From Thermincola carboxydiphila (GTDB lineage: Bacteria > Bacillota > Thermincolia > Thermincolales > UBA2595), in contig JAENYP010000001.1 in assembly GCA_016841725.1 (NCBI GenBank), positions 62,001 to 126,000 of the forward strand: a stretch of 64,000 nucleotides of DNA, written 5' to 3'. Below the pieces are notes generated by a model. The model was given only the letters and a program-made list of their open reading frames with translations, had not been told where the DNA came from and searched no databases. Shown here one piece after another: positions 10,543-43,532 of this stretch (positions are counted from its first letter, which is position 1; each line of letters opens with the position of its first letter). Position numbers and translations under genes: made by a program.

Positions 10543-11793
10543 TTAGTCTTTCAAAGCAGCGCCGATGCCCATTGACCTGGCCACCAACTCTGCCATATGA
10601 ATAACTTTAATGTTAGATTCAGCTTTTGCGGCCCCACCTGACAGTCCGGAAAAGCAGGTCGGGCACGGAGTTGTCAGATATTCGGCTCCGGTTTCCTCAG
10701 CATCCCTGATGCGGCGGACCGATGCCTCTTCCTGTAAATCGTGGTTAGCAATCTTCAGACCTCCACCTACCCCACAGCACCTTGAGAACTGCCTGGTTCT
10801 TTCCATCTCAACCAGCTCGATTCCCGGAATTGCCTGCACCACCCGGCGTGGGGCTTCGTAAATATTGTTGTGCCGTCCCAGCAGGCAGGGGTCATGGTAA
10901 GTAATCCTCCCCTGAACAGGCACATTTAATTTGATCTGTCCCTGCCGAATCAGAATGTCAAGGTACTCGGAAAGATGATAAATCTGATACTTTTGCTGTC
11001 CCACCTTGGGATAATCACTGTTGAGGGTTTTAAAACACCCGGCACATGCAGAAACCAGTGTGTCAATTCCCAGGCTGTTCAATTTTTCTATGTTTTGTCC
11101 GGCCAGCTGCTTAAAGGTAGGATCCCCCATCCGGCGCAGTTTGCCATAACAACAGTTTTCTTCGCTTCCCAAAACCCCGAATTTAACTCCGGCTTCGCTA
11201 AGGATGTTTACTGTATGTTTGGCAATCCTGCTTACTTTTTCATCAAAGGTTGCCGTACACCCAATAAACAACAGAACCGAAGCCTTGTTTTCCTTAATCA
11301 GTTCAGGCCTGTACAGCAGTGTTCCATCCTGAAGGCCGTCTTCTATCCAATCAGTCCTGGCTGACTGCTCCTTTTTATATGGATTCCCGAATTTGACAAG
11401 GTTTTCGCAGAAAGTCCTTTGTTCAGGGATTGGTCCCAATCCTGATCTGAACATAGCCTCCCGGACATCTTCCCAGAGTTCGACGGTATCAATTCTTGAC
11501 GGACAGACGAAATGGCACTGGTTGCAGCAGGAACACTCATACAGGCCGGTCAAAAAGTCCGCCAAAGTATCCTGTCGAATCTCAGATTTGAATAATCCCA
11601 GTAATCCGTTCTGGGCTTTTAAGATGGACTTAAAATTCTTTATTTTGGCCCTTGGGGTAACTTTTTCGTTTTTCGTAAGACTATATACCGGACACCAATT
11701 CTGACACTCTCCACATCTGGTGCAGGCATCCAGGCACATAAGCCGGCGGGGACTTAATTTATCCAAAGGTATTTTACTATTACTCTTTTTCAT
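10543..11793 (-). CDS. HdrD/DsrK-like (Fe-S) oxidoreductase with two CCG domains
   Basis: Cytoplasmic iron-sulfur protein of 416 residues. Two ferredoxin-type cluster motifs come first (CTRCGECQNWCPVYS and CSCCNQCHFVCPSRI). Two cysteine-rich CCG domains follow (LLFIGCTATF...ENCCYGK and YHDPCLLGR...FSRCCGVGGG...TPCPTC), as in HdrD and DsrK subunits that handle disulfides or thiols at a non-cubane cluster. Its start overlaps the preceding NarI-like membrane gene by 4 bases (ATGA), implying a membrane-bound pair exchanging electrons between quinone and a thiol/disulfide or soluble carrier. The substrate is unknown. Confidence 0.88.
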   Translation of the reverse strand: MKKSNSKIPLDKLSPRRLMCLDACTRCGECQNWCPVYSLTKNEKVTPRAKIKNFKSILKAQNGLLGLFKSEIRQDTLADFLTGLYECSCCNQCHFVCPSRIDTVELWEDVREAMFRSGLGPIPEQRTFCENLVKFGNPYKKEQSARTDWIEDGLQDGTLLYRPELIKENKASVLLFIGCTATFDEKVSRIAKHTVNILSEAGVKFGVLGSEENCCYGKLRRMGDPTFKQLAGQNIEKLNSLGIDTLVSACAGCFKTLNSDYPKVGQQKYQIYHLSEYLDILIRQGQIKLNVPVQGRITYHDPCLLGRHNNIYEAPRRVVQAIPGIELVEMERTRQFSRCCGVGGGLKIANHDLQEEASVRRIRDAEETGAEYLTTPCPTCFSGLSGGAAKAESNIKVIHMAELVARSMGIGAALKD

Positions 11794-12575
11794 ATATACA
11801 GATCACCCCTTACCCGTTCTTCTGAAGCGTTAAACAGAATCTCTGCGGGACTACTGATAATATGCATAAACTTACTATGGGGAAAATAGGCCAGCATAAC
11901 GGCCGTAAGAAAGGCATGCAGGGTCCAGATCACAGAAGCAGCATTTCTGCCCGACTCGCCCTGTAATAAAGAGAGTTCCGCCAACCGGTATCCGATAAAA
12001 GAATAATGCAGCCCCGGGACAGACCCGGAGAGCGAAATCCTTAGAGCTTCCAGCAGAAATCCGGTAATAACTAATAATAGCAGGAAAACTAAGGTCGTTG
12101 TGTCATAAGAGTCTGTATTCAGTTGTTCAGCCCGGAAAATAAACCTTCTCAGAAAGGCAGCAGTCAATCCCGCTAACAGCATTAATCCGAAGAGATCTCC
12201 AGCCAGCTTATAATAGTTGTGGCCCTGACCCTGAAGCATATATTGAGTGATCCGGGAACTTTCCGGGATAATGGTCTCTAAAGCCACAGCTATTGCCGAT
12301 AATGAAATCAACCCGATAAAACCCCAAAAAATCAACATATGAACAGACCAGCGCAAAAGGCTTCTTTGGGCTATATGTTTCTGAAACAATACTTCCCGGA
12401 AAAAGGCGGCAGACATTGCTTTGTAGTCTGGCTGTTTGTACAGTAGTCTGCCTTTCCCACTGAAATAAAAGGAAAATTTCGTAACCATGCCTACTATAAA
12501 AAGTAGTAGACCAAATGACTGAATTATCCAGAATATTGTCCAGGGTTTGTAGTAAAGCACTACACCTGAATCCAT
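11790..12575 (-). CDS. NarI/DsrM-like membrane b-type cytochrome
   Basis: Integral membrane protein of 261 residues resembling the gamma subunit of respiratory nitrate reductase and DsrM/HdrE. About five transmembrane helices are seen (near residues 12-32, 75-97, 122-142, 163-183, 212-230), with histidines placed for haem b (HMLIFWGFIG, TLHAFLTAVML). It would anchor the HdrD-like protein encoded immediately downstream (4-base overlap) and exchange electrons with the quinone pool. The gene follows the UGA-containing membrane-protein gene by 44 bases, so the three form one likely operon. Confidence 0.85.
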   Translation of the reverse strand: MDSGVVLYYKPWTIFWIIQSFGLLLFIVGMVTKFSFYFSGKGRLLYKQPDYKAMSAAFFREVLFQKHIAQRSLLRWSVHMLIFWGFIGLISLSAIAVALETIIPESSRITQYMLQGQGHNYYKLAGDLFGLMLLAGLTAAFLRRFIFRAEQLNTDSYDTTTLVFLLLLVITGFLLEALRISLSGSVPGLHYSFIGYRLAELSLLQGESGRNAASVIWTLHAFLTAVMLAYFPHSKFMHIISSPAEILFNASEERVRGDLYI

Positions 12576-12619: not shown

Positions 12620-13744
12620 TTACTTAACTTTATGGGCCTGATAAAACTTGCCAAAAACGACAGCATACATAATTGATGCAAATATTACGCTGATATAGTT
12701 TGCGGCAGAAAGTACTGCACTGGGAAAATAGTTTGCATACACATAAACCCCCAAAACTTGGGAGCCAACAAAAGCTCAGACCATAGCCCACTGGGTTGCG
12801 GAAAATTCACTTCTATAGAAATATTCTTTAAAGTAGCTGCTGAGTAAATAAATACTGAAAACACCCCAGCCAATTGAAGTGACATAAGAGAAGTTGATTA
12901 AAAAGAATGAGATAATCTCTGTATCAATATTAAAATGTATCTGTAAATACTCTGTTAGTCTCAGGAGACTTATTCCAAACAGGCAGGTAATGGGAATCAT
13001 AATAAAATAGCTGGGCAGTACGGGGCTTTGCGGCAAACTGACAGATTTCAACTGCAGGTAAACCAAATAACTAAGCTTAGTTACCAGTAAAAACAAACCC
13101 ACACTCAAAGCCAGCAGTGACGCGAAAGCAGCTATAGATGAAAGCTCTCTGCCGGCTGCCATGGAGGCTATTCCGGTACCGGTCAGATTAACCAAACCAA
13201 AGGCGAAAACATCAAGCAGCCATACAAAATTTAATTTAGCTCCATCAAGAGGCTGGGTTAACCAGTTCTTCAGAAACTTGAATTCAAGCATAAAAAGAAT
13301 AAACCAGAGACAACCAAAGAAAATGAATCCTGGCAGCATCAAAGACTGCAGATTTGACGATATTTCAGGGATAAAAAAAGCCAGTGGAGCCAAGACAACA
13401 TTTGCAATCATAGACATGGAGGCAATGGGAACAAAAATACCGATACTCATTGTCGGCGGCCCATTCATAAAAGCGTTATATTCCTCCCTGTTAAAAAGCC
13501 ATACTAAAAGGCTTTTTAAAAGAACAACTGTGGAGATTAAGCTGATAGCCGTAAAAATTAACATGATTCCGGTTAAAAAAAGGTACATTAAATTTTGAAC
13601 CGTACTTAATCCTGCCCATGGCATATCTGACAATTTGATTAATCCTTCTCCATGAGGCACGGCAAACTGCAGATAATTAAAGGCCATTAGTGAGATACCT
13701 CCTGCAGCCAGAGGCACCTGGAATTTGAATGGTGTAAACTTCAT
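12620..13744 (-). CDS. Polytopic membrane protein, probable selenoprotein (Sec323)
   Basis: The frame runs 322 codons to an in-frame TGA (12778-12776), then stays open for 51 more codons to TAA 12620. The continuation (VYVYANYFPSAVLSAANYIS and onwards) is hydrophobic, like a further membrane helix, so the reading frame looks coding on both sides of the TGA. Immediately 3' is a hairpin CTCCCAA-GTT-TTGGGGG whose apical loop lies about 19-21 bases after the UGA, within bacterial SECIS spacing. SelD in this window shows the cell uses selenocysteine. I therefore call a 374-residue selenoprotein with about ten membrane segments. I recall a family annotated as TsoY (seleno)protein with this architecture but cannot verify it. 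The gene is followed by a NarI-like and an HdrD-like gene, suggesting membrane redox chemistry. The alternative is a nonsense mutation. Confidence 0.75.
12736..12778 (-). promoter_or_regulatory. Candidate bacterial SECIS element after UGA of membrane protein
   Basis: In the mRNA the UGA is followed by a seven-pair stem (CTCCCAA pairing with TTGGGGG, including one G-U) closed by a GTT loop. The loop begins at the nineteenth base after the UGA and starts with G-U, as in SelB-recognised bSECIS loops. Pairing was judged by eye, not computed. Confidence 0.6.
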
Positions 13745-16787: not shown

Positions 16788-17600
16788 CTACCTTTTCCTG
16801 TTCCAGGCCTCTGTGCCGTACTTTGACCGGGATAAATCAAAGGCCTCAGCCATTTCAGCGCCTGATAACTGCTGTGGCGTTAAACTTATCCCCCACCCGG
16901 CTGCAAACGATTTGGTCAAGGCGCCGGCGACTTCCTGAAATTCCGGAGCATATCCCAAAACCTCGTTCAGTGAAGCAGCCTTGTCATCAAAAATACGCTT
17001 TCCATTTTCCCTGGCCTGTTCAGAGGGATACTGCAAACAGGAAAACAGTAAATCAGTTTCTTTTTCTATTAATACTGAACCGTGCTGGAGAATACAGTTA
17101 TTTCTCCTGGTCTGGGCGCTGCCAACAATCTTTTTGCCAAAAACAGTGACTTCATACCGGGATGGTGAGTCAAAACAGGCCGCCGTACCGGCGCCCGGCC
17201 TTTTTTCGCCGCCGGATATTTCGGCCGGTATGCCCAGCTCTTTTAAACCGCCTGTAATACCACGACTGACCGCCAGATAAGTCTCCAGCAAAGTCCCTCT
17301 GAGAATCCGGTTATTCTCCGGCGCAATTACACTGTAAGTCAGTTCCCGGTGATGCAGGATGGCCCTGCCGCCGGTTAAACGCCTGATAACATCCACACCC
17401 TGTTCCCCGGCGCTGACGGCATCAATTTCCTTATGATAGCTCTGGAAATAACCCAGAGTAATTGCCGGCTGCGACCATTGATAGAACCTGACCGTGGGTG
17501 GAGCAGTCCCCCTGGCGGCAGCCAGAAGTATTGCTTCATCAACCGCCATATTAACAGCCCCCGATTCAGACATACTGATAATCAGCCGCCACTCCTCCAT
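16788..17600 (-). CDS. Lipoate-protein ligase A / octanoyltransferase family
   Basis: LplA/LipM-like protein of 270 residues. The motif RRLTGGRAILHHRELTYSV and the lysine in KKIVGSAQTRRNNCILQHGS are the substrate-binding landmarks of the family. It loads lipoate or octanoate on lipoyl domains. Placement next to two radical SAM genes, a GcvH-like carrier and lpd matches the more recently described lipoate assembly sets in which an Lpl-type enzyme works with the radical SAM pair LipS1/LipS2 instead of classical LipA. Whether it uses lipoate or octanoate cannot be told here. Confidence 0.85.
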   Translation of the reverse strand: MEEWRLIISMSESGAVNMAVDEAILLAAARGTAPPTVRFYQWSQPAITLGYFQSYHKEIDAVSAGEQGVDVIRRLTGGRAILHHRELTYSVIAPENNRILRGTLLETYLAVSRGITGGLKELGIPAEISGGEKRPGAGTAACFDSPSRYEVTVFGKKIVGSAQTRRNNCILQHGSVLIEKETDLLFSCLQYPSEQARENGKRIFDDKAASLNEVLGYAPEFQEVAGALTKSFAAGWGISLTPQQLSGAEMAEAFDLSRSKYGTEAWNRKR

Positions 17601-17605
17601 CAGCT

Positions 17606-18586
17606 CTAACTCTCCTCTTCCAGGTTATCCAGTATAGAATTAACAGCCTCGCTAATTTCATCAGGGGTAAGCTCCCGAGGGTAGTTATACATCACACCGC
17701 CTGGTTTTTCGTTATAATAAGGCCGGTTACAGTCAGGACAACCTGAGGTCTTAAAGGCAGTTCCTCCACTAAGATGTTCCTTCAAGGCAGCTCTGGTCAA
17801 TCCATAACTTGTCAGATTACCGGAGTCAAATTTACACTGGGATGCAGTTATCAGCTTTCCTTCCATAAGATAGCGGGCCGCCTGGATCCTCCTGTAGCTA
17901 TCGACCCTTGGGGGCGTAACCCCGGCCATCGGGGTCCCTGGAACAGGAGTAAAGGCAAAGAGTCCTGAAGTAATTCCCCGGTCCTGCATTTGCTGTAATA
18001 TATTTATCATTTCTTCTTCCGTTTCTCCCAGCCCCACAATCAGGTGTGTGGAAATTCTCCCGGGATACAGATCGGCTGCAGTATAAAGCATATCGAGGTT
18101 CGCGTTCCAGCTGCCCCCTTTGGTGTTTCGGTAAACATAGGAGCCGGCGGCATCCAGGGCAATGGTAATCCGGTCAACTCCTGATTGGACAATAAATTTT
18201 AATTCATCAGTATTTTTAATCCTTACAGAAACACAAATGGGAACATCTGAAAACCTTTTTATGGTGCAGACTGTGTCTCTTATTTCTGACAGAGGCTGCC
18301 CGTCACTGACCACCTGCAGGCATACCCTTTTAATCCTTCCGGCAGCATAAGCATAGGCAGTTTTTTGCGCCACATCCTCAAGTCCGGCCTCATGCCAGGT
18401 AATTCTGGACAGGAACCGCGGCCGGGACAACGCGTTTTGGGCTTGGGGGCAAAACCCGCAATTATAAATGCACCTATCACCAGTCATCAAATAAGCGGTT
18501 GTGGGCAGCACATCAGCTGCGATTTTCCGGTAGCCAAACAAATGCGCGGTACCTGCTGAGACCCTGATGATCATAGTACACAACAT
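17606..18586 (-). CDS. Radical SAM protein, LipS1/LipS2-type lipoate synthase component (second gene)
   Basis: Radical SAM enzyme of about 326 residues with the cluster motif CIYNCGFC (C-x3-C-x2-C) near residue 40 and a C-terminal cysteine pair (TSGCPDCNRPYYNEKPGG), probably for an auxiliary Fe-S cluster serving as sulfur donor. The start is ATG 18586 or ATG 18574; both overlap the end of the upstream radical SAM gene, the second through an ATGA junction. With the lplA-like gene six bases downstream and a GcvH carrier upstream, I infer a LipS-type enzyme inserting sulfur into octanoyl groups. I cannot tell LipS1 from LipS2. Confidence 0.72.
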   Translation of the reverse strand: MLCTMIIRVSAGTAHLFGYRKIAADVLPTTAYLMTGDRCIYNCGFCPQAQNALSRPRFLSRITWHEAGLEDVAQKTAYAYAAGRIKRVCLQVVSDGQPLSEIRDTVCTIKRFSDVPICVSVRIKNTDELKFIVQSGVDRITIALDAAGSYVYRNTKGGSWNANLDMLYTAADLYPGRISTHLIVGLGETEEEMINILQQMQDRGITSGLFAFTPVPGTPMAGVTPPRVDSYRRIQAARYLMEGKLITASQCKFDSGNLTSYGLTRAALKEHLSGGTAFKTSGCPDCNRPYYNEKPGGVMYNYPRELTPDEISEAVNSILDNLEEES

Positions 18587-19428
18587 TCCTCTCCCAGCTT
18601 AATATCAAGTCCGAGATCTGCCGCTATTTCTGCTGTCCCGGGGGCAGGCTGGACAATCCGGTTGATTCCGCAGCGCAGGGCAAGCTGGTCCACTTCCTGC
18701 CTGTGTCGCCCTCCGGGTCTCATACACCCTAAATGCAAAGGAACTTTTGGCAAATCTATTCTGGCTTTGCACAGGACTCTGGCCACATCGTCAGGTGCCG
18801 GAATCTGCCGGTTAGAGAAAAGGGTGTCTCTGGTAGGACGAAATACCAGAAACACCAGCCCATCAACCCCTATTTCCCGCAGCAGGTCAATAGCCCTGAA
18901 TTCACCACTGAGCCGGCCGCCCCTAAGACCGATACAGATATGGGGGATGACCCGGACCCGCTTTTTTAGTTCCCGGTATGTATTGATATATTCCCCAATA
19001 TCTTTCTGCAAACCATAGACTTCTCTCACTGTTTCACTGTCTCCCACAAAATCAAAAGAGATGGTATCAGCAAGTTTACTGATTTGTTCGATTTCATCTG
19101 TGCCAATCAGTCCGGTGTGCAGGTTGATCCTCAGCCCGGCCTTTTTAATATCCTCCAATATGTGAAGGCAGTCTAAAACAGGGACCCGGCCGTTTGGGTC
19201 ACAACCTCCGGATACCAGGACACTTTTAATTCCAGGTTTTATTTTTTTCTGCCATAACTCTGCCGGAATCATGTTCCTCAGGTAGCGGCCGCTGCAGTGG
19301 GCACAGTTCAGCTGGCAGCGGCTCCCGGTAACGCTGATGGCCATTGTTTTTTGCGGTGTGCAAATTACCACTTCATCAGAAAAGTGTTTGCGTCTTACCT
19401 GATAGGCCTGGGTAATTAGCTGTGCCAA
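18571..19428 (-). CDS. Radical SAM protein, LipS1/LipS2-type lipoate synthase component (first gene)
   Basis: Radical SAM enzyme of 285 residues with CQLNCAHC (C-x3-C-x2-C) around residues 39-46, a glycine-rich SAM-binding segment (VLVSGGCDPNGRVPV), and extra cysteines at the extreme C terminus (GEECCVL) and in HLGCMRPGG. It begins 17 bases after the GcvH-like gene and overlaps the next radical SAM gene. The pair of non-identical radical SAM proteins next to a lipoate ligase is the signature of LipS1/LipS2 lipoate synthesis. Function is inferred from context and motif, not direct similarity. Confidence 0.72.
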   Translation of the reverse strand: MAQLITQAYQVRRKHFSDEVVICTPQKTMAISVTGSRCQLNCAHCSGRYLRNMIPAELWQKKIKPGIKSVLVSGGCDPNGRVPVLDCLHILEDIKKAGLRINLHTGLIGTDEIEQISKLADTISFDFVGDSETVREVYGLQKDIGEYINTYRELKKRVRVIPHICIGLRGGRLSGEFRAIDLLREIGVDGLVFLVFRPTRDTLFSNRQIPAPDDVARVLCKARIDLPKVPLHLGCMRPGGRHRQEVDQLALRCGINRIVQPAPGTAEIAADLGLDIKLGEECCVL

Positions 19429-19445
19429 AACAGTTTCCTGAATTT

Positions 19446-19838
19446 TTACTGCTCCTCACCTTCGATCAATAGCCTCCCATATTCCTCCACAGTAAGCAAG
19501 CCATCAAGTTCTGCGATATCTGAAACTTCCAGGACAGCTATCCAGCCCCCGCCGTATGGTTCCTCATTTATCAGTTCAGGAGAGCTTTCCAACCCGGTAT
19601 TGACTTCTATTACCTTTCCACCTATAGGAGCAATGACTTCAGATACGGCTTTCACCGACTCAATCCTGGCCATAGGTTCACCGGAGGCACACTCATCTCC
19701 GATGGCGGAAAGTTCAATAAATACCACATCACCCATTAAGGATTGAGCAATATCAGTAATCCCAACCGTAACCTGGCTGCCGTTTATTCTGACCCACACG
19801 TGTTCTTTGGTATACTTTAAATCCTTTGGATTAATCAC
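19446..19838 (-). CDS. gcvH: GcvH-like lipoyl carrier protein
   Basis: Glycine-cleavage H-protein homologue, 130 residues, with the lipoyl-lysine in ARIESVKAVSEVIAP and the normal H-protein fold motifs (KYTKEHVWV, VGITDIAQSLMGDV). The start is GTG 19838, preceded by AGGAGG that overlaps the stop of the DsrE-like gene. There is no gcvT or gcvP nearby. The protein may therefore be the acceptor on which the downstream enzymes build lipoate, or a stand-alone lipoate-binding protein as in lipoate-dependent sulfur metabolism. The symbol refers to family, not proven glycine cleavage. Confidence 0.85.
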   Translation of the reverse strand: MINPKDLKYTKEHVWVRINGSQVTVGITDIAQSLMGDVVFIELSAIGDECASGEPMARIESVKAVSEVIAPIGGKVIEVNTGLESSPELINEEPYGGGWIAVLEVSDIAELDGLLTVEEYGRLLIEGEEQ

Positions 19839-19848
19839 GGAATACCTC

Positions 19849-20199
19849 CTAAAATGTCAAGACTTTGTCAGCCTCTTCCATCCAATGGGCCAATTCTATC
19901 ATGTTGCTTCTTTCAGTTCCCTCGACCATTTGTACTTCGCTCAGTCCCCGAGCGTCCATACAGGTCCCTCACAACTTGACTTTCCCGCCTTTAACCAGGA
20001 TTCCCTTAAGCATGCGCTCAATATTATAATAACCCTGTGGCGTATTCTGGCCTGTTACAGCATTGCCAACAGCATCAGCCATCAGAAAAACCCTGACATC
20101 GGCAGCAACCTCTTTTTGCATCACCATGGCCAGCCTGAGAGCATTATAGGCTTTTTCTGTTCCATAAGGGCCGTCATTGACTATAAATAGATACTTCAC
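19849..20199 (-). CDS. DsrE-like sulfur-relay protein, probable selenoprotein (Sec77-x-x-Cys80)
   Basis: Small DsrE/TusD-family protein. The frame meets TGA at 19971-19969 and continues open for 39 codons to TAG 19849. Decoded as Sec, the junction reads KLU-GTCMDARGL, where DsrE-family proteins normally have a CxxCxDARG motif, so the first cysteine is replaced by selenocysteine (U77, C80). The continuation is clearly coding (GLSEVQMVEG...AHWMEEADKVL). A stem CGCTCGG-GGA-CTGAGCG follows with its loop 22-24 bases after UGA. GTG 20199 is chosen because GGAGG lies six bases upstream; an ATG at 20223 precedes that ribosome site. Full length is 116 residues. It lies between selD and gcvH, with the gcvH ribosome site touching its stop, so it is co-transcribed with lipoate assembly genes. 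A sulfur or selenium carrier role is inferred. Confidence 0.85.
19938..19971 (-). promoter_or_regulatory. Candidate SECIS element in dsrE-like mRNA
   Basis: A seven-pair stem (CGCTCGG with CTGAGCG, one G-U pair) with a GGA loop begins about 15 bases after the UGA. The loop is at bases 22-24, within the range for SelB recognition. Judged by eye. Confidence 0.6.
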
Positions 20200-20249
20200 A
20201 TCATCCCTCCTTCCATTCACCATCTGTCATCAGACAGCGTATTTTTGCG

Positions 20250-21293
20250 CTATGGCAAAAGTTCAATAATACCTGGGGGCCCGCCGGTGATTTCCCCAAC
20301 ACAGGCCGCTGTCTGGCATCCTTCTCTAATCAGCGACTCTTCCAGCTTCTCTGCCTTTTCCGGTGCCACTGCAATTAACAATCCACCCGAAGTCTGGGAA
20401 TCACATAAAACCGTCCGGATTTCAGGCAGTACTTTAGCTGACCTTACTTTATCCGCCAGGTAACGGTAATTATTATGAGTTCCGGCAGGTACAATGCCGG
20501 CACGGACCAGGTCCCAAACCTCATCAATGACCGGAACGGCTCCGGTATATATCCCGGCGCCCGTCCCACCTGCCGCTAACATTTCATACAGGTGGCCCAG
20601 GAAACCAAACCCGCTCACATCAGTACAGGCATTGACACCCACTTCCAACATAGCCCTGGCTGCACCACTATTCAGTTCCACCATCAGGTCATAGACCTTT
20701 ACTGTCAGCTCTGTACCGGCTAAATCGCGGTCGATGGCAGTTGTTATTATTCCTGACCCTAAAGGCTTGGTAAGGTACAGCTTATCACCGGGCCGCGCCC
20801 CTTTTTTAAATAACAGCTTTTCAGGATTTACGGTACCCGTAACAGCCATCCCATACTTAGGAGCATTGTCCTCCACCGAATGTCCCCCGGCAACGGTGAC
20901 TCCGGCTTTTGAAGCAATATCAGCCCCGCCGCGCAGGATCTCTTCAAGGATGCTGACAGCCAGGCTTTTTACGGGAAAACAGACGATGTTTAAAGCAAAA
21001 ACCGGTTCAGCCCCCATGGCATAAATATCACTTAAGGCATTTGCAGCTGCTACTGCTCCGAAGGAGTAAGGGTCGTTTAAAACCGGGGTTATAAAATCAA
21101 CGGTCTGGACCATTGCCAGTTCTTCACTGATTTTGAAAACCGCCGCATCATCAGCGCCCTCAGTATAAAAGCGTTTATCCTTAATTTTGGGAAGACATGT
21201 CAAAATTTGTTTAAGATCCGCCGGATCTATTTTGCAGGCTCAGCCGGAACCCGGCGAAAAACTGGTTAACCTGACAGTGGGTTTCTCATTCAA
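20250..21293 (-). CDS. selD: Selenide, water dikinase SelD, itself a selenoprotein (Sec18)
   Basis: Makes selenophosphate, the selenium donor for Sec-tRNA and other uses. A standard ORF call from 21203 loses the N terminus. The frame extends upstream through TGA 21242-21240 to TTG 21293, which has AGAGGG eight bases before it. Read through, the N terminus is LTSFSPGSGU-ACKIDPADL, the classic catalytic site with Sec at residue 18 in place of Cys. Total length is 347 residues, as normal for SelD. A perfect five-pair stem GATCC-GGC-GGATC lies 13-25 bases past the UGA. ATP/Mg motifs GADDAAVF and GGHSVEDNAPKYG are present. It is the first gene of a seven-gene operon running through the DsrE-like and lipoate genes to lpd, divergent from a LysR gene. 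Confidence 0.95.
21214..21242 (-). promoter_or_regulatory. Candidate SECIS element in selD mRNA
   Basis: Stem GATCC / GGATC (plus an outer A-U pair) with a GGC loop located 18-20 bases after the UGA codon of selD. Geometry is very close to the other two candidates in this window. Confidence 0.65.
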
Positions 21294-21414: not shown

Positions 21415-22299
21415 ATGGAATTATCCCAACTCAGGGCTTTTTATGAAATCGCCAGATCCGGCAGCTTCAGTAAAGGGGCCGAAAAACTTCATATTACACA
21501 GCCGGCCCTGTCACGCCAGATTGAATCCCTCGAAAAATCAGTTGGGATAAGCCTGTTCAACAGGCACAGCCGTGGGGTTTACCTTAGTGAAGCAGGCCGC
21601 AGATTATTTGAATATGTGGAACAGATGCTGAGGCTGGCCGATGAGGCTGACAGAACCCTTCAGGAATTACAGGGCCTTCATATCGGCAAGCTGAGCATCG
21701 GCGCCTGCACAACTATGGGGAGCTATTTACTGCCTACTCCACTGGCTACTTTTCTGAAAATGCATCCCAATATTGAGGCTTCCCTGGAGCTGGGCAGCAG
21801 TGATGAAATCGCCGCCAGGGCTGCCAACAGGGATTTTGATCTGGCCTTTATCGCAGGCATTACCGACCCGCCGGGGCTGTGTATCGAACCAATTCTCGAA
21901 GACCAGATTCTTTTTTTAGTTTACCCTGACCATCCTTTGTCTAAAACGACCGTCTTTCAGCCAGAACTGCTCGCTAAAGAGGTTTTTATCATGAGGGAAT
22001 TGGGTTCAGCCACCAGAAAGGCCCTGGAAACCATTCTGGAAAGTGTCCACATCAAACCGGGCAGGGTTGTCACCCTTGGTGATACTGAAGCTGTGAAAAG
22101 GGCCGTCATGGCCGGTATGGGGATTACTTTTCTGTCACGGTTCACCGTGGGGCTGGAACTGCAGACCGGCCTTTTATGTGCCCCCAGTTTTCCGGAGCTG
22201 CAAATGAGCCGGAAACTGCTCTGTATTTATCCCAAAGGAGTACACCTTTCCCCGGCATCCCTGGCCTTTTTGTCACATATAAAAAAAGAGAGCTATTAG
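21415..22299 (+). CDS. LysR-family transcriptional regulator
   Basis: LysR-type regulator of 294 residues. The N-terminal winged helix-turn-helix contains SFSKGAEKLHITQPALSRQI and the remainder is a periplasmic-binding-like effector domain. GGTGG lies seven bases before ATG 21415. It is transcribed divergently from the selD-dsrE-lipoate operon, so it is the likely regulator of that operon. A second copy of its presumed site upstream of the UGA-containing membrane protein points to a wider regulon. The effector is unknown; sulfur- or selenium-related metabolites are reasonable candidates. Confidence 0.9.
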   Translation: MELSQLRAFYEIARSGSFSKGAEKLHITQPALSRQIESLEKSVGISLFNRHSRGVYLSEAGRRLFEYVEQMLRLADEADRTLQELQGLHIGKLSIGACTTMGSYLLPTPLATFLKMHPNIEASLELGSSDEIAARAANRDFDLAFIAGITDPPGLCIEPILEDQILFLVYPDHPLSKTTVFQPELLAKEVFIMRELGSATRKALETILESVHIKPGRVVTLGDTEAVKRAVMAGMGITFLSRFTVGLELQTGLLCAPSFPELQMSRKLLCIYPKGVHLSPASLAFLSHIKKESY

Positions 22300-24956: not shown

Positions 24957-25033
24957 TCCGGCAGCTTGGCAGTCATAGTAAAATCACCTTAGACCCATAG
25001 CTTTGTGCCCCCGCCTTTCAACGGGTTTACCCT
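24957..25033 (-). ncRNA. c-di-GMP-I (GEMM-I) riboswitch aptamer
   Basis: On the minus strand the sequence runs AAGGGTAAACC, a GAAA tetraloop region, GGGGGCACAAAGCTATGGG, TCTAAGG, and ends ATGACTGCCAAGCTGCCG. These are the conserved blocks of the GEMM-I family: the tetraloop/receptor, the CAAAGC core and the GCC...GCCG closing side. A consensus-like promoter directly precedes it and an intrinsic terminator directly follows, before the chemoreceptor gene. The CACAAAGC block differs from the commonest ACGCAAAGC, so ligand specificity (c-di-GMP versus cGAMP) should not be assumed. Confidence 0.82.
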
Positions 25034-25037
25034 TGTC

Positions 25038-25066
25038 ATATTATTGATTCATAATTTTACGGACAA
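25038..25066 (-). promoter_or_regulatory. Sigma-A-type promoter for riboswitch-MCP transcript
   Basis: TTGTCC, a 17-base spacer and TAATAT, placed so that transcription would start at about 25031, right at the aptamer's first strand. Confidence 0.65.
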
Positions 25067-41125: not shown

Positions 41126-41285
41126 ATTTTATCTCCTCTAAAAAACTAAGCGGGTGGATAACCACCCGCAGAAAATCAAATATAGAATACCTGATTTTAG
41201 AAATTCGTTGACCTTATCAACAGCCGGAGCGTTATAAGGTGAGAAGCGGATGGCTTCTGCTTTTGGATAAAATATCAAATTCTTT
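41126..41285 (-). ncRNA. infC leader RNA (L20-leader type) with attenuator
   Basis: The leader contains GCCATCCGCTTCTCACC...GATAAGGTCAACGAATTTC and ends in a strong GCGGGTGG/CCACCCGC hairpin with a T-run. This arrangement resembles the Firmicutes L20 leader, where L20 binding promotes termination. Assignment is by position and partial motif recall. Confidence 0.6.
41139..41169 (-). terminator. Attenuator terminator in infC leader
   Basis: Perfect eight-pair stem GCGGGTGG / CCACCCGC followed by TTAGTTTTTT, 30-60 bases before the infC start. Confidence 0.85.
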
Positions 41286-43292: not shown

Positions 43293-43527
43293 CTCATCCC
43301 TGGCAATAACACCAGAGACGAGAGGTTGTTCTCCCGCGGTTCCACTCTGCTTCCGGCAAACCGGCTCTTTCACAGTCTGTAACGGGACTCACCCGGTCAG
43401 AGCATACTTTGTTCAGCCCGACAGCTCCAAGGTGGTTTTTCGGCTGCCTGTTCCCTGATAAGGCTTCCAGCCCAGGCCTTATCTCTCTGGCAGGTGCCAC
43501 AGCTTACTTTTCCTCTTCACAGCATTT
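43293..43527 (-). ncRNA. T-box riboswitch of thrS
   Basis: The leader carries the T-box sequence GTGGAACCGCGGG (about 43330-43342), a terminator CTCGTCTCTGG...CCAGGGATGAGG with TTTTATT, and a Stem I region with AAAAGTAAGC and CAGAGAG elements. A threonine ACC triplet occurs in AAAAACCACC at the expected end of Stem I. Uncharged tRNA-Thr would favour the antiterminator and thrS expression. Confidence 0.9.
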
Positions 43528-43532
43528 GTTTT

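Follow-up and report, generated by a model that had tools for sequence, protein, structure and literature searches.

The gene tsoY occupies positions 12620 to 13744, minus strand, of the 64,000-nucleotide stretch of Thermincola carboxydiphila DNA that was analysed (the window). It starts with an ATG at 13744, with GAAAGGAG ahead of it, and closes with a TAA at 12622-12620 directly followed by TAG, giving a double stop. Its frame consists of 322 codons, an in-frame TGA (12776-12778, minus strand) and 51 further sense codons. With selenocysteine (Sec) inserted at the TGA as residue 323, the predicted product is a selenoprotein of 374 residues with ten membrane helices and the SLAC1/TehA fold. 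The Sec lies in TM9 within the motif W-A-M-V-U-A-F-V, and the Sec-dependent C-terminus (12620-12775, minus strand; 51 codons plus stop) supplies the remainder of TM9 and all of TM10. The initial annotation had placed a membrane protein at these same coordinates, which were correct, with the strand now set to minus; the plus-strand reading of the interval gave no frame in translation. Its observation of a late in-frame UGA followed by a hairpin is real, and the frame was indeed found open for 51 codons beyond the TGA and to encode a continuing membrane helix, corresponding to TM9-TM10. This extension is the longest among the ten TGA-ended ORFs of at least 200 amino acids in the window, the others ranging from 0 to 29 codons. 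Use of TGA as a sense codon throughout the genome was rejected because the nine other ORFs of this size terminate at TGA.

Downstream of tsoY lies a gene for a NarI-like membrane subunit (11790-12575, minus strand; PF02665, 41.9 bits), which is paired with a gene for an HdrD-like Fe-S/CCG protein (10543-11793, minus strand; PF02754 CCG, 100 bits). The distance from the tsoY stop codon to the ATG of the NarI-like gene at 12575 is 44 bases with read-through versus 200 without it, and the two genes are probably on the same transcript. On the other side of tsoY, two further genes with an in-frame TGA were found on the minus strand. One encodes a DsrE-like selenoprotein with the motif UGTC (19852-20202, TGA at 19971-19969; PF02635, 90.6 bits), and a strong hairpin follows its TGA at a distance of 21 nt. 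The other is selD (20250-21260 as translated, the start codon not being fixed; TGA at 21242-21240; TIGR00476, 353 bits), with a hairpin 17 nt downstream of the TGA. A LysR regulator of the selenium-metabolism type is located on the plus strand at 21415-22299, its best match being NF040786 (LysR_Sec_metab) with 231.8 bits at a cut-off of 250. The region between dsrE and tsoY (16788-19838, minus strand) is occupied by a lipoate cluster comprising a lipoate ligase-like gene, GcvH and two radical SAM genes, one of them LipS1, with a dihydrolipoyl dehydrogenase nearby. Rfam models above their gathering scores placed a c-di-GMP-I riboswitch (24957-25041), an L20 leader (41136-41268) and a T-box (43311-43529) on the minus strand of the window.

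The full read-through product matched the NCBIfam model NF047643, 'selenoprotein TsoY', with 556.1 bits over positions 1-366 of 366 (cut-off 250 bits), and the wider model NF047644 with 342 bits. A 2026 review (PMC13188914) lists TsoY, with the motif UxxV, as a selenoprotein family with no stated function, and gives as its source Haft and Tolstoy 2025, mSystems 10:e0141724. The motif is present here as U-A-F-V at residues 323-326. The genome possesses selB (357.7 bits), a tRNA-Sec with anticodon TCA and the selD gene with its own UGA. By its sequence the gene is a member of the published TsoY family, because of the full-profile NF047643 score, the conserved UGA and hairpin, and the Sec machinery in the genome; the type of protein proposed initially, a membrane selenoprotein of the TsoY kind, was thus the right one. 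For comparison, 13 full-length Sec-type sequences were aligned. Besides that of the window, they come from other members of its genus, family and phylum and, in one case, from a deltaproteobacterial MAG, and these others are 48-91% identical to the TsoY of the window. All 13 have UGA at the Sec column and run on with conserved sequence into the C-terminal helices, and conservation after the UGA is about equal to that before it, so that no natural end of the homologues at this point was found. A Cys homologue, which the initial annotation had suggested looking for, was found in the distant relative L010 (22% identity; 422 bits to NF047644). Sequence and model together show UGA323 to be conserved as a Sec codon, and incorporation of Sec is predicted. 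A second TGA at codon 375 in the tsoY of genome G001 is presumably an ordinary stop. A remnant of tsoY containing only the C-terminal third, with two TGA and one TAA, was seen in genome G302 (L017, 1501-1791), and a collection of plasmids contained no tsoY match.

The SECIS-like hairpin (12746-12766, minus strand) has 9 bp and the loop GUU, and reads GGCUCCCAA-GUU-UUGGGGGUU. The loop begins 18 nt past the UGA, its bases being numbers 19-21, as first described, and this spacing is indeed close to that of selD (17 nt) and dsrE (21 nt). It falls within the 16-37 nt given in the literature (PMC13188914). The published criteria for a bacterial SECIS were also satisfied at 80 of 300 (27%) random coding positions of the window, so the hairpin and its spacing alone prove little, and the 66-nt fold gave z = -0.07. 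Since neither the criteria nor a single fold was discriminating, conservation was used instead. The loop starts 18 nt after the UGA in all 13 sequences and is GUU in all except one, which has GUG. Standard pairs occupy 99.1% of the 117 pair cells of these sequences, compared with at most 70.9% when the partner strand is slid. Covariation is modest because there is only a single double compensatory change, from A-U to G-C. Nowhere else in the gene are synonymous codons as frozen as in the hairpin, where the mean codon identity is 0.78 versus 0.51 elsewhere, a level reached by random draws with p of about 0.0008. Given the UGA and hairpin in 13 of 13 sequences, the conservation after the UGA and the frozen hairpin codons, read-through is supported far beyond chance.

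The structure predicted by AlphaFold2 from a 14-row alignment (pLDDT 85.6, pTM 0.87) consists of ten long helices, the C-terminal ones spanning residues 316-338 and 343-372. In a Foldseek search of the PDB with this model the top ten hits were all SLAC1, SLAH or TehA chains (E 5e-5 to 1e-3), and the best remaining hit had an E of 0.49. VIA-align gave Z values of 26.7-32.1 for SLAC1/SLAH/TehA, the best alignment covering 314 residues at 3.1 A, versus Z = 16.9 for the best unrelated row. Only the fold search made the link; searching the PDB by sequence, with the profile of TsoY, found nothing. Three TsoY relatives exceeded the gathering score of the Pfam SLAC1 model PF03595 (27.9) over their full length, with 35.8, 33.5 and 36.4 bits; PF03595 was not listed by hmmscan for the TsoY of the window, although one of these three relatives is 87% identical to it. 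The Cys relative L010 did not match PF03595, and its poor structure model (pLDDT 59) was left out of the comparison. Sequence and model thus show a predicted ten-helix SLAC1/TehA (TDT) fold for TsoY. The literature searched, the family's primary paper excepted, contained no description of this fold or of a Sec-for-Phe gate in TsoY, and a search joining 'selenoprotein' with 'SLAC1' returned plant papers only.

The position of the Sec was examined against nine aligned TDT proteins, in which W251 and F255 are among eight invariant columns and form part of the TM9 motif WW[AS][YF]xF(P). In profile-profile alignments by hhalign with three TDT sets, and by hmmsearch, W319-A-M-V-U323 falls on the W-x-x-x-F of this motif. 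Local, global and relaxed runs of hhalign all agreed on the gate column, but beyond TM9 the profile alignment is weak, with an identity of about 15%. The gate phenylalanine of AtSLAC1 is numbered F450 (PMC9076830), and Phe262 on TM9 is the gating residue of HiTehA (PMC11050165). The Sec323 column corresponds to F450 of AtSLAC1 and is the counterpart of F262 of HiTehA, so the TDT gate phenylalanine is absent from TM9 of TsoY, where Sec takes its place, or Cys in L010. The gate Phe is conserved in the SLAC1 family but was not used to define the PF03595 model. As judged by sequence and model, Sec323 occupies the gate-phenylalanine column of TM9, an inner helix, the residue-level assignment being based on the alignment and not on model coordinates. 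In TehA the odd helices line the pore, and in TsoY the odd helices are more conserved than the even ones (means of about 0.84 versus 0.70).

The surroundings of tsoY were compared at 14 loci. The gene selD is close to tsoY in nine of them, a DsrE-like gene (UGxC, CGxC or a weaker match) is present in eight, adjacent to tsoY in L019, L040 and L045, a NifS-like desulfurase in six and a CGGC-domain protein in three. Six loci have a LysR for which the selenium-metabolism LysR model is the best match, each time just below the model cut-off. At least one of selD, nifS and dsrE was found in 12 loci, and of the two loci lacking all three, one starts at the end of a contig. What the conserved neighbours suggest is trafficking of selenium/sulfur; genes located near selD may be regulated together without belonging to a single pathway. 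The NarI- and HdrD-like genes lie next to tsoY only in the four genomes closest to each other, those of the genus and one more from the family (identity at least 76%), and were not found beside it in the more distant of the 14 loci. The Tso operon was rejected as the context of tsoY, as no TsoA above the cut-off was present in 398 genomes of the phylum; TsoA-like open frames without a stop, well under the TsoA cut-off, occur in L083 and L089 (own genome). Several further features were observed at individual loci. L042 encodes a Cys form (CGTC) of the DsrE-like protein, which resembles the C-terminal domain of YedF. In a Desulfosporosinus MAG (L023, 5027-6142), beside a broken tsoY and selD, a thioredoxin/DsbD-like frame has an in-frame TGA at EFYAKW-U-PSC (UxxC) and is likely another selenoprotein. 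ArsR-type regulators lie directly upstream of tsoY in L045 (7991-8326) and L044 (7113-7460), that of L045 resembling the sulfite-sensing BigR at a score below the BigR cut-off.

On balance, TsoY is probably a Sec-containing membrane protein of the SLAC1/TehA fold that is linked to SelD and lets a small anion of selenium or sulfur pass, as a pore or as a facilitator; we infer that there is transport, as well as its direction, its substrate and the chemistry of Sec323. Candidate anions are selenite, hydroselenide, sulfite and the like. At the constriction the selenol might provide a redox-switchable gate or hold the chalcogen for a short time, and the DsrE-like carrier would be the cytoplasmic acceptor, handing the chalcogen on towards SelD. 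More tentatively, with the odds somewhat against so specific a version, TsoY might be a selenoprotein anion channel in which Sec stands in for the gate Phe, the selenol controls opening or chalcogen transfer, and selenium or sulfur is moved to SelD. Alternatively, a Sec in the pore might have a role in signalling or bind a metal.

The main rival to the selenium/sulfur pore is export of toxic oxyanions, in which TsoY would be a TehA/Ssu1-like channel, with Sec as its sensor, for selenite, sulfite or tellurite present in excess. The fold shared with TehA and the ArsR-type regulators adjoining tsoY in two loci are consistent with such a role; however, the neighbouring LysR_Sec, selD, nifS and dsrE genes suggest supply over removal, the sequence itself giving no direction, and detoxification seems rather unlikely. 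Less likely still is the thiol/quinone redox complex proposed in the initial annotation, in which TsoY would be a membrane subunit joined to the NarI-like cytochrome and the HdrD-like Fe-S protein, with Sec as redox centre. Sec is usually a redox residue, and the order tsoY-narI-hdrD with small gaps is shared by the window and three relatives, but among the loci compared the narI/hdrD pair is confined to these closest genomes, the SLAC1/TehA fold predicted for TsoY is that of an anion channel, unlike that of membrane subunits carrying haem or Fe-S, and a second conserved Cys near the Sec is absent, the motif being UxxV; we therefore regard this complex as improbable. The least probable reading by far, that the TGA is an ordinary stop followed by a chance frame, could appeal to neither feature being rare on its own, as the frequency of SECIS-like random sites illustrates, but it is practically untenable against the same conserved C-terminal helices in 13 of 13 homologues, the Cys in one relative, the conserved hairpin and the full-length match to the family HMM.

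The favoured reading, a SelD-linked selenium or sulfur pore, may be set beside three known systems. Compared with the known TsoY proteins of NF047643, the TsoY of the window shows no difference in sequence: it matches over the full length at twice the cut-off, with Sec in the same place and the motif UxxV. The gene adds one more member to a family already published, so the initial observation becomes ordinary once the family is known. In the phylum sampled TsoY is found without a TsoA above the cut-off, and sits with selD, nifS and dsrE. With SLAC1/TehA/TDT proteins TsoY shares the ten-helix fold (Z about 32) and the W-x3-[F/U] of TM9, and some TsoY proteins exceed the Pfam cut-off; it differs from them in the Sec replacing the gate Phe (Cys in the distant relative), in its selenium-gene context and in an identity of about 10-15%. 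The SLAC1/TehA fold, the gate Sec and the selD, desulfurase and DsrE-like neighbours together lead to a testable transport hypothesis. If it is true, TsoY would be a selenoprotein with Sec inside the pore of a channel, and might explain how selenium moves in some anaerobes without YedE. No YedE above the cut-off was found in this genome, and TsoY had no match to YedE (TIGR04112) among its NCBIfam matches at E up to 1. A role in selenium transport has been proposed for the set YedE-YedF-Sec lyase-SelD-LysR_Se (PMC5322559), and the neighbour set of tsoY is closely like it. By analogy of gene context, TsoY may play the part proposed for YedE/YedF of other bacteria. The DsrE-like protein differs from YedF in being without the SirA/TusA domain and in carrying UGTC. 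Both the tsoY and the YedE/YedF (TIGR04112/TIGR03527) sets combine a ten-helix membrane protein with a DsrE-type CGxC protein, and in both selD, a Sec-lyase-like gene and LysR_Se adjoin.
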